From Halorussus litoreus (lineage in GTDB: Archaea > Halobacteriota > Halobacteria > Halobacteriales > Haladaptataceae), in NCBI RefSeq assembly GCF_003382685.1, contig NZ_KZ859517.1, forward strand, positions 26,738 to 64,829: a stretch of DNA of 38,092 nt, given 5' to 3'. The notes below the pieces were generated by a model, which saw only the letters and a program-made list of their open reading frames with translations, had not been told where the DNA came from and made no database searches. A program made the position numbers and the translations under genes. This document shows positions 17,603 to 21,027 of the stretch, piece after piece. Positions within the stretch are counted from its first letter, which is position 1, and each line of letters begins with the position of its first letter.

Positions 17603-18835
17603 TCAGCGGATCACGTCGAGTCCGTTGCTCTGCTCGACCTCGTCGCGGCCGCCGTCGCTCTCGGCACCCCACTCGTTCGACCCGCCGGCGTCGTGGGTCG
17701 AACCGGCCGAGTCGCCGAAGGTCTCGGCGTTCTCGAGGTTCTGGCTGGCGTCGAACGACGAGTCGTCGATGTCGCTCATCTTCTCGCGCGAGCGGTCGGC
17801 CTGCTTCTGCGTGCTCGGGCCGAGCACCTGCGCGCTCTGGACGCCGGTCATGATGGCCATGACTCGGACCTTGCCCTTGTAGTTGTCCTGGATGCGCGCG
17901 CCCCAGATGACGTTCGCGCTGGCCTCCAGTCGCTCGGTGATGTTGCTCGCGATGGACTCGGCCTCCTTCAGCGTGAGGTCCGGACCGCCCGTGATGTGGA
18001 CCAGTCCGCCCGACGCGCCGCGGTAGTCGACGTCGAGCAGCGGGTGGTTCATCGCGTCGCGGACGACCTCCTCGGTCTTGTTCTTGTCCTGGGTCTCGCC
18101 GACCAGCATCACCGCGACGCCGCCCTGATTCATGATCGAGGTCATGTCGGCGTAGTCGAGGTTGATGAGGCTCGGCTGGGTGATTGTCTCCGAGATACCC
18201 TTGACGGTCTCGGCGATGATCTGGTCCATCACCGAGAACGCCTTGCCGATAGGCAGGTTCGGGACGTAGTCGAGCAGTCGGTTGTTGTCGAGCACGATGA
18301 TGGAGTCGGCCTCGCCACGGAGCTTCTCGAGGCCCTCCTCGGCTTTCACCGTGCGCGCGCGCTCGACGTTGAACGGCGTCGAGACCATCCCGACGACGAT
18401 TGCGCCCTGCTCTTTGGCGATCTTCGAGACGACGGGCGCGGCTCCCGTGCCGGTGCCGCCGCCCATCCCGGCGGTCACGAACACCAGGTCCGCATCGCCG
18501 AGCACGTCCTTGATCGTGCCCTGGGCCATCTCGGTCGCGCGCTCGCCCATCGAGGGGTCGCCGCCCGCGCCGAGGCCGTTGGTCAGGGACTTGCCGACGA
18601 GGATCTTCGTGTCGGCCTCGATCATCTTGAGGTGCTGCTTGTCGGTGTTGATCGCGACCGTGTCCGCGCCCTCGACGCCGATGTTGTACAGCCGGTTGAC
18701 GGTGTTGTTGCCCGCGCCGCCGCAGCCGACGATGACGATACGGGGGTCGCCGAACTCGTCGCCGTCGACCGAGGCGTCCATCTCGCGGCTCTCCTCCTCG
18801 GCGTTCTCTAGCGCGTCCTGGACGATGTCCTGCAT
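17603..18835 (-). CDS. ftsZ2: Cell division protein FtsZ2
   Basis: A 410-residue tubulin-superfamily GTPase. Haloarchaea use FtsZ1 and FtsZ2, of which FtsZ2 drives ring constriction. Visible: [17 protein letters not shown] (33-49), the tubulin signature [14 protein letters not shown] (123-136), [12 protein letters not shown], and the synergy (T7) loop NLDYADM (225-231). An acidic, Ser/Asp-rich C-terminal tail (from about 360) contains the linker for partner binding. The N-terminus [20 protein letters not shown] and the adjacent cdrS identify it as FtsZ2 rather than FtsZ1. The start is 3 nt after the cdrS stop, indicating one transcript. Confidence 0.95.
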
Positions 18836-18838
18836 GAT

Positions 18839-19018
18839 CTACACCTTCGCCCACGACCGCTTGTTGGTCGTCTGGTCGGCCGTCTCCTCCTGTTCGTTCA
18901 ACATGTCGCGAACGGCGGCCCGAATCGCCTCGCTCCGGTTCGGGAACTCGCCGGTCTCGACCATCTGTTCGACCTCCTCGATCTGCTGTTTCGGAATGCG
19001 CAGTGTCACACGCTCCAT
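18839..19018 (-). CDS. cdrS: Ribbon-helix-helix cell division regulator CdrS
   Basis: A 59-residue ribbon-helix-helix (CopG/Arc-like) protein: strand [20 protein letters not shown], helix-turn-helix [22 protein letters not shown], then a short polar tail ending RSWAKV. CdrS (cell division regulator, short) is encoded directly upstream of ftsZ2 in haloarchaea and controls ftsZ2 and other division genes; size, order and spacing here match. ATG 19018 begins the DNA-contacting strand. The stop is 3 nt before the ftsZ2 ATG. The long leader between its promoter and ATG carries several motifs described in the next entry. Confidence 0.92.
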
Positions 19019-19206
19019 GGTTGGTATATCCCCTGTGAGTAAGACGGTTCGCGACTTCCCACGCGCGCTGTCTTACAGCATGTGCGCGCTTCAGGCGGCG
19101 GACATCCGCCGCGAAGCGCCATCTGTAAGACAACCGTCTTACGCATCAAGACCCAACAAAGTCAAAACTTAAATAGTTAATGGCTACTCGTAAAACACTG
19201 TCTTAC
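19019..19206 (-). promoter_or_regulatory. cdrS-ftsZ2 promoter/leader with repeated GTAAGAC operator motif
   Basis: On the minus strand a TATA box CTATTTAAG (complement of 19165-19174) predicts transcription starting near 19142. GTAAGAC or its complement GTCTTAC occurs five times: 19039-19045, 19070-19076, 19125-19131, 19136-19142 and 19200-19206. The middle pair forms a perfect inverted repeat GTAAGAC-AACC-GTCTTAC lying at or just after the predicted start. The leader also has a stem-loop (19087-19118: CGCTTC, GCGGCGG, loop ACAT, CCGCCGC, GAAGCG). Ribbon-helix-helix dimers bind such repeated short sites, so CdrL and/or CdrS are the obvious candidates. Confidence 0.75.
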
Positions 19207-19958
19207 GGGCGGTCCAGCACGTCGGCGGCGGGCGTCCGGCGGCCGCAGCCGGGGCAGAACCCCCAGTCCGAGCGCACCTCGTCGCCGCACTCGCAGAACA
19301 GCCGCCGGGCGGCCTTCTCCCCGCAGTTGGGGCAGTACACGTGGTCGTCGGACAGCGACTCGCCGCACTGGCCGCAGGCCGATTCGGCGGCAGAGTCGCT
19401 CGCTTCGCCCGCTTCACGCGCAGGTCGGGCGTCGGACGAGTCGTCCGACGCCCGACCCGCGCGTCGAGTCGCCTCCGTATCGGTGTCGGATCGTCCGCGC
19501 GGGGCCGCATTAGGTTCGGTGCGCGCTCCCCCGTCGGACTCCAGCGTCACGTTGACGTTCACGTCCTGCGGCCGTCCGGCCGCACGGGAGTCGCGTCGCG
19601 ACTCCCGTGCGGCCAGCCGCTCGGTCACGAGTTCGTCTACGCGCTCGGCCAGGAAGGCATCCAGCGTGGCGGTCCGAGCGCGCTCCCCGCGAGCGCGCTC
19701 GGACGCGCGGCCCGGTGCGGAGTCAGCCGTCGCGCCGCGGCCGTCGTCCGGCGCAGTCGCGCGCCGCTCGGAATCCACTGGCCCACGCCGTTCGGAGTCC
19801 GCCCTCGCGTCGTGCCCAGCGTCCGCTCCGTCGCGCTCGACGCTCGCGCCGTCGAGGTACGCGCGGAGCGCCTCCCGCATGATCTCGCTCTTCGAGGCGT
19901 CGCGGGCCTCGATGCGCTCGACGAGGTCCTCGTCCGCGCGGAAGGTAATCTTGCTCAT
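19203..19958 (-). CDS. cdrL: Ribbon-helix-helix/zinc-ribbon regulator CdrL
   Basis: A 251-residue protein with an N-terminal ribbon-helix-helix (MSKITFRADEDLVERIEARDASKSEIMREALRAYL, 1-35), a long disordered acidic/Arg-rich linker, and two C-terminal zinc ribbons (CGQCGESLSDDHVYCPNCG and FCECGDEVRSDWGFCPGCG). This domain order and the position just upstream of cdrS-ftsZ2 match CdrL (long), which binds the cdrS-ftsZ2 promoter in Haloferax. The linker is repeat-laden: three perfect palindromes (19423-19457, 19578-19614, 19672-19704) and a duplicated SERR-GPVD/TAP segment. ATG 19958 starts the ribbon strand; codons further upstream are not used. The stop codon lies inside a GTCTTAC motif. Confidence 0.88.
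   Translation of the reverse strand: MSKITFRADEDLVERIEARDASKSEIMREALRAYLDGASVERDGADAGHDARADSERRGPVDSERRATAPDDGRGATADSAPGRASERARGERARTATLDAFLAERVDELVTERLAARESRRDSRAAGRPQDVNVNVTLESDGGARTEPNAAPRGRSDTDTEATRRAGRASDDSSDARPAREAGEASDSAAESACGQCGESLSDDHVYCPNCGEKAARRLFCECGDEVRSDWGFCPGCGRRTPAADVLDRP
19423..19457. repeat. 35-nt perfect palindrome in the cdrL linker
   Basis: Seventeen-nt arms around one central G (19440). Encodes part of the RAGRASDDSSDARPARE linker stretch just before the zinc ribbons. Confidence 0.95.
19578..19614. repeat. 37-nt perfect palindrome in the cdrL linker
   Basis: Eighteen-nt arms around one central T (19596). Encodes the RLAARESRRDSRAAGR stretch. A smaller GCGGCC-GTCC-GGCCGC palindrome touches its left end. 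Confidence 0.95.
19672..19704. repeat. 33-nt palindrome in the cdrL linker
   Basis: Fourteen-nt arms GTCCGAGCGCGCTC and GAGCGCGCTCGGAC around CCCGC. Encodes the SERARGERART stretch. Confidence 0.95.
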
Positions 19959-20803: not shown

Positions 20804-21027
20804 CGCTGAGATACTTTCACTGCATTGTGAAGAGTTAACACCCATCGTGATAAATCAAGAAGTAGGCGTTCTCTGTCCCGGAGAAGAGATGGCTGGTTGC
20901 CACAGGATGTTGGTCTAAACGCCAGGGGGTAAGGGAAGGACAATGACCGTAAGACCATCAACGGGGTACACGAACCTACTACACCAGTGTTTCGCGGTTC
21001 CTCAAAACCAAACCATTGGGGTGTCAC

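Follow-up and report, generated by a model that had tools for sequence, protein, structure and literature searches.

Results

The cdrS-ftsZ2 locus

The window (the whole stretch of 38,092 nucleotides that was analysed, from Halorussus litoreus) carries on its minus strand the genes cdrL, cdrS and ftsZ2 in this order, with a gap of 184 nt between cdrL and cdrS (Table 1). The length of CdrL (251 aa) was counted from the conserved MSKITFR start (alignment A1), and the CdrS protein of the window is 97% identical to CdrS of H. amylolyticus. In the preliminary description of this DNA both genes flanking the motif region were proposed to encode ribbon-helix-helix (RHH) proteins, which was borne out by the Pfam domains. 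As the controlled operon begins with cdrS and has cdrL upstream, an RHH regulator is found both in and beside it.

Table 1. Genes, half-sites and predicted structures at the cdrS-ftsZ2 locus (half-sites are given in gene sense).
Feature	Position	Strand	Basis or remark
ftsZ2, division tubulin	17603..18835	-	3 nt after cdrS; Pfam Tubulin and FtsZ_C; ORF table
cdrS, 59-aa RHH regulator	18839..19018	-	NCBIfam CdrS equivalog, 122.8 bits (cut-off 100); Pfam RHH_1
Half-site E, GTCTTAC	19039..19045	-	Predicted leader-RNA partner of C1
Half-site D, GTAAGAC	19070..19076	-	Predicted leader-RNA partner of C2
Half-site C2, GTCTTAC	19125..19131	-	11 bp from C1
Half-site C1, GTAAGAC	19136..19142	-	At expected transcription start
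TATA-like box TATTTAAG	19168..19175	-	Sequence; precedes C1 in gene sense
Degenerate partner of site A, GTTTTAC	19190..19196	-	Sequence; 3-nt spacer
Half-site A, GTAAGAC	19200..19206	-	Upstream of TATA box
cdrL, RHH and zinc-ribbon regulator	19203..19958	-	Pfam CdrL_M, RHH_1, zinc ribbon
Predicted leader RNA structure	19039..19142	-	Window fold; covariation; flank tests
Predicted outer helix C1:E	19132-19142 with 19039-19049	-	Window energy fold; covariation
Predicted inner helix C2:D	19123-19131 with 19070-19078	-	Window energy fold; covariation
Predicted GC-rich hairpin, GGCGGATGTCCGCC core	19083-19119		Between C2 and D

Five exact copies of GTAAGAC/GTCTTAC are present as previously described, at 19039(+), 19070(-), 19125(+), 19136(-) and 19200(-). 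The pair at 19125-19142 is indeed a perfect inverted repeat with a 4-nt spacer, and it is also unique in the genome; the cdrL stop codon (TAA, 19203-19205, minus strand) does fall within the site at 19200-19206. The TATA box had been placed at 19165-19174, which is close, the TATA-like box being in fact that given in Table 1. From this box alone transcription is expected to start at C1, and four of the five sites (C1, C2, D and E) are expected within the transcribed leader, with site E directly upstream of a GGGG (19030-19033) and the cdrS ATG. The degenerate GTTTTAC that adjoins site A had been overlooked; it lies close to the place that the A site occupies in other lineages (about 52 nt upstream from C1), and its pair with site A recurs in other Halorussus and in Haladaptatus. 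A sixth copy of the motif was found at 20949, outside the cdrS promoter region, with 2.1 copies expected in the whole window, and five copies of any 7-mer within a 188-nt stretch were obtained in 3 of 2000 dinucleotide shuffles. Judged from the window alone, the excess of the motif is suggestive and not overwhelming.

Conservation of the sites across haloarchaea

A comparative analysis was carried out with 80 named cdrS loci and further loci drawn from 293 Halobacteriales genomes. Each of the 153 unique haloarchaeal cdrS promoters had the motif, with one to five exact copies (mean 4.3) and five of them in 86 promoters, and the adjacent 260 nt of coding DNA were free of it at 146 of the 153 loci. 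Absence of the motif upstream of cdrS in relatives had been named beforehand as a finding that would speak against an operator, and with this class-wide conservation the proposal has passed its own refutation test. The palindrome GTAAGAC-N4/5-GTCTTAC was found exactly once in 263 of the 293 genomes and never twice, and a reversed control pattern in one genome. It lay at cdrS in nearly all inspected loci, its location having been verified directly at fetched loci only; in G019, a genome of low completeness, the palindrome was present and no cdrS was found beside it. A single place per genome upstream of cdrS-ftsZ2 is what a CdrL target should have.

The anatomy of the promoter is also conserved. 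The TATA-to-C1 distance was 31-33 nt in 125 of 136 promoters, and the C1-C2 spacing was 11 bp in 111 of 141 promoters and 12 bp in another 18, that is, short repeats about one helical turn apart as in tandem RHH operators. The distance from A to C1 was 52 in most promoters, and the haloarchaeal spacings other than C1-C2 were not strict multiples of 11. The earlier description of the repeated sites is thus borne out, and more strongly than it claimed.

Some variants of this anatomy were found. In three promoters of Haloquadratum and its kin (L031, L063 and L112) C2 is replaced by a direct-orientation GTATGAC placed 10 bp from C1, which breaks the palindrome; in these promoters the half-site is tolerant of flipping. 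In family f15 (promoters L115, L119, L120, L122, L123, L126 and L127) the spacer between C1 and C2 is 2 nt instead of 4 (9 bp centre to centre), a change that is consistent and specific to the family.

Distribution of CdrL and the probable sequence recognised by CdrS

In Hbt. salinarum, ChIP-seq of CdrL revealed one reproducible place, upstream of cdrS-ftsZ2, with the binding resolved to region level (Darnell 2020, PMC7439475), and the once-per-genome palindrome fits this single place. Together with the conservation and the 11-bp spacing, this supports in good part the earlier claim of an RHH operator. The same work stated that CdrL is present in all Halobacteria (PMC7439475), and this does not fit four complete genomes (G012, G039, G003 and G101; loci L274-L277) in which no CdrL was found with all candidates scored, although they keep cdrS-ftsZ2, the palindrome and site E. 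Further haloarchaeal genomes lack CdrL at the locus; ten candidates per genome were scored in the order-wide search, and therefore the absence of CdrL is claimed for the four fully scored genomes alone.

The palindrome is consequently not restricted to genomes that have CdrL. CdrL had been proposed as its reader and, since at least four CdrL-less complete genomes retain the palindrome, CdrL is probably not the sole one; another protein, most simply CdrS, probably reads or can read it. No RHH protein other than CdrS is shared by every carrier of the element, those without CdrL among them. The invariant RHH strand is K3-T5-R7 in CdrL and R3-T5-R7 in CdrS.

Exact A sites were found in one of 10 CdrL-less promoters versus 97 of 131 promoters with CdrL, and exact D sites in one of 10 versus 105 of 131. 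Family f4 members that bear CdrL share the degenerate A and D sites, so this rarity was attributed to phylogeny and a specific requirement of CdrL for both sites was dropped.

For CdrS, ChIP in Hfx. volcanii yielded 18 sites with a symmetric motif (Liao 2021, PMC8406309), and the cdrS promoter is absent from them (PMC8406309). The published motif is available as a figure only, and the CdrS word was reconstructed here from CdrS target promoters. A GTCNGAC-N4-GTCNGAC pair is located just upstream of BRE/TATA at the ftsZ1 promoter of Haloferax and other genera, in agreement with the published -50 position of the CdrS ChIP (PMC8406309). The same pair is found in Haloferax upstream of hisB, another CdrS ChIP target (the gene was named from sequence), and a degenerate form upstream of dacZ, also a published CdrS ChIP target, in several genera. 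The GTAAGAC word was absent from the 20 ftsZ1 regions analysed. From the pairs at CdrS targets and this absence, GTCNGAC on a 7-N4-7 frame is inferred to be the CdrS word. The haloarchaeal cdrS promoters share the frame and not the half-site word, the third base being A (GTAAGAC) and not C, and any GTCNGAC is present in only 22 of the 153; their operator appears to be shifted by one base from the CdrS word. In the preliminary description both CdrS and CdrL were suggested as readers, with possible auto-regulation; CdrL at this promoter is backed by ChIP, whereas the Haloferax CdrS peaks omit this promoter and the CdrS targets carry GTCNGAC.

In another Halorussus locus (L325, G041 contig 9), a pair of the CdrS type, GTCAGAC-N4-GTCTGAC, was found about 90 nt upstream of a radA-like gene, which could be a repair target of CdrS.

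An older lattice outside haloarchaea

No CdrL was found in the non-haloarchaeal Halobacteriota genomes searched, with the exception of two zinc-ribbon-only matches within large other frames. In these relatives FtsZ is encoded directly downstream of every cdrS gene, and GTCNGAC is present in all 24 unique cdrS promoters, GTAAGAC or GTCTTAC in only one of them. Of 93 half-site pairs with separations of 7-49 bp, 83 were spaced at exactly 11, 22, 33 or 44 bp; simulations (2000 runs) gave 7.5 such pairs on average and never more than 17. This lattice, absent from the preliminary description, falls for the most part between the ATG and the expected start of transcription. Because CdrL-less relatives carry it before cdrS-ftsZ2, the element goes back further than CdrL.

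A hairpin in the leaders of these relatives is only suggestive (13.6 pairs in their own leaders versus 12.5 in chimeras). One non-haloarchaeal leader (L184) has a nearly perfect inverted repeat with 18-bp arms, about 20-60 nt before the cdrS ATG, which is composed of the GTCNGAC lattice.

Predicted structure of the leader RNA

The energy fold of the window leader is a nested structure in which C1 is paired with E and C2 with D, a feature that had gone unnoticed, and RNAalifold unaided picks C1:E. The segments between C2 and D fold better than shuffled ones in most haloarchaea (mean z -2.3). In alignment A2 (49 promoters), the nested C1:E and C2:D helices accumulated 53 doubly changed cells versus 23.7 in shuffles, with a covariation score of 0.133 versus 0.064 shuffled and at most 0.075 slid, values that relatedness may inflate. 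Flank tests in a thinned set of 94 promoters showed complementarity between the bases 3' of C2 and those 5' of D, the second base matching in 72 promoters versus 45.3 in shuffles. Bases 3' of C1 were likewise complementary to those 5' of E, with 82 promoters versus 71.2 in shuffles for the second base, and the other site-flank pairings gave mostly no signal. Isolated control positions, such as the third base of C2-E, also exceed the shuffles in this set, a warning of a relatedness effect.

The orientation of the sites differs between the two sides of the TATA box. Site A, upstream of it, is free (65 GTCTTAC, 46 GTAAGAC), and the leader sites are fixed (110:2 for D, 154:2 for E). In family f4, D often loses its heptamer and the flank pairing of C2 with D is retained. 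The heptamers of C1, C2 and E are invariant, unlike those of a purely structural stem. The leader had no match in Rfam up to an E value of 1. Local hairpins C1:C2 and D:E were discarded as RNA structures, showing no covariation excess, and so was a flank preference of a shared protein as the cause of the covariation, the flanks of other copy pairs being mostly uncorrelated. It has been reported that mRNA level and ribosome occupancy of cdrS-ftsZ2 diverge during growth (comparative transcriptomics, PMC8303175). With moderate confidence, the folding and covariation results indicate that the predicted leader fold is real.

Discussion

The results obtained make it fairly probable that the five sites, as a whole, serve the cdrS-ftsZ2 division operon as its autogenous control element. 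In this model each 7-bp half-site, a pseudo-palindrome GT...AC, would be bound as double-stranded DNA by one RHH dimer, and two dimers 11 bp apart would sit side by side on C1-C2, over the transcription start, lowering initiation. Site A, located upstream near -50 as is the CdrS site at ftsZ1, has the placement of an activator site and may act positively. The ancestral reader would be CdrS on its own promoter; in haloarchaea it would be CdrL, which binds the promoter according to the published ChIP-seq, with CdrS probably still able to do so, and dimers on the half-sites would exert feedback on cdrS-ftsZ2. The transcript is predicted to fold through the same sites, C1 with E and C2 with D, bringing the mRNA 5' end beside the GGGG before the ATG, and this fold may set the translation or the stability of the cdrS-ftsZ2 mRNA. 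A delta-cdrS strain has been reported to fail in ftsZ2 activation, which does not fit simple repression by CdrS and would be accommodated by a positive role of site A. The delta-cdrL strain carried second-site mutations (Darnell 2020, PMC7439475).

An operator read by CdrL only is possible, though unlikely. GTAAGAC would be the private word of CdrL, never touched by CdrS, and the one-base shift from GTCNGAC would insulate the cdrS promoter from CdrS, now a global regulator. This explanation agrees with the match between the single CdrL ChIP site and the once-per-genome palindrome, with the lack of the cdrS promoter in the CdrS ChIP and of GTAAGAC in 20 ftsZ1 regions, and with the K3 versus R3 recognition strands; however, the four CdrL-less complete genomes retain both palindrome and site E, the f4 sites are alike with and without CdrL, and related arrays occur where CdrL never existed. 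Somewhat less likely again is autoregulation by CdrS only, with CdrS reading both GTCNGAC and GTAAGAC and the CdrL ChIP signal arising indirectly through a CdrS-CdrL complex. The presence of CdrS as the sole RHH protein in all carriers of the element, CdrL-less ones too, the use of the CdrS word in the ancestral arrays and the lowered ftsZ2 of its own operon upon CdrS loss point in this direction, but the Haloferax cdrS promoter has no CdrS peak even with plasmid-expressed FLAG-CdrS.

The preferred autogenous element, read as DNA, could also be extended to the transcript. The sites would then double as DNA operator and as two identical RNA helices, GUAAGAC:GUCUUAC, which would have a reader as well, perhaps CdrS or else the zinc-ribbon protein CdrL acting on its target mRNA; this, if true, would couple transcriptional and translational feedback on an archaeal division tubulin. 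We hold this dual use to be quite doubtful. A purely mRNA leader element, in which the C1:E and C2:D helices would control translation or stability of cdrS-ftsZ2, is an even less probable explanation. The covariation above shuffles and slides, the fixed orientation of D and E, the survival of the C2-D flank pairing upon loss of the D heptamer and the reported divergence of mRNA level and ribosome occupancy (PMC8303175) would be explained by it; nevertheless, site A is found in either orientation and upstream of the TATA box, the heptamers of C1, C2 and E are invariant, a related word is found at ftsZ1 in sites that are not transcribed and lie beneath a CdrS ChIP peak, and the CdrL ChIP reflects DNA binding at the cdrS-ftsZ2 promoter. 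Finally, chance or a compositional artefact, to which the modest window-only excess (3 of 2000 shuffles with five copies of some 7-mer) would be open, is refuted by conservation over 153 promoters and 263 genomes and can be practically dismissed.

What sets the timing of archaeal division is still an open question, and few regulators besides CdrS and CdrL are known. With exact sites for mutation now defined, control of the division switch by the autogenous element becomes directly testable. Under the model, autoregulation by CdrS should be an ancestral trait, present in relatives outside haloarchaea as well, and the locus would be a natural example of how operator specificity divides once another RHH gene has been added. 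An undescribed RNA layer could explain the reported post-transcriptional behaviour of cdrS-ftsZ2.

Comparison with known systems

RHH operators as a kind and, at region level, the binding of CdrL at this promoter are already known. In a literature search outside of which lay preprints and most subscription papers, no description was found of the motif or its class-wide anatomy, of the ancestral lattice with its 11-bp spacing, of the shift in specificity, of the genomes without CdrL or of the leader structure. The element occupies the same promoter region as the CdrL-bound promoter of Halobacterium salinarum (PMC7439475), for which that study gave no motif, site anatomy, lattice or RNA structure. 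It shares with the Haloferax volcanii CdrS ChIP motif (PMC8406309) a symmetric RHH site, 7-N4-7 pairs and the 11-bp frame. The CdrS ChIP targets carry GTCNGAC, mostly upstream of the TATA box, whereas the cdrS promoter carries GTAAGAC. In Saccharolobus, aCcr1 is an RHH cell-cycle regulator, as cited in PMC7617429; it is alike in the RHH control of an archaeal division gene and differs in that the Saccharolobus division machinery is unlike the one considered here. CdrL gave a weak, sub-threshold match to the aCcr1 model (22.9 bits, cut-off 60).

Among PDB entries, CdrS is similar to CopG/Arc/MetJ antidote proteins and to NikR, with sub-threshold matches to NikR. The NikR operator is GTATGA-N16-TCATAC, and GTATGAC occurs at some of the D and A sites; nevertheless, the spacing is 11 bp here versus 22 in NikR, and CdrS has no nickel-binding domain. 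Operators of the Arc/CopG/MetJ type, including those of antitoxin autoregulation, consist of short repeats about one helical turn apart at the own promoter of the regulator, and the cdrS element is like them in its repeated sites and its spacing of about one turn. Unlike them, the cdrS element controls a division tubulin, and its sites also form a predicted leader-RNA fold.
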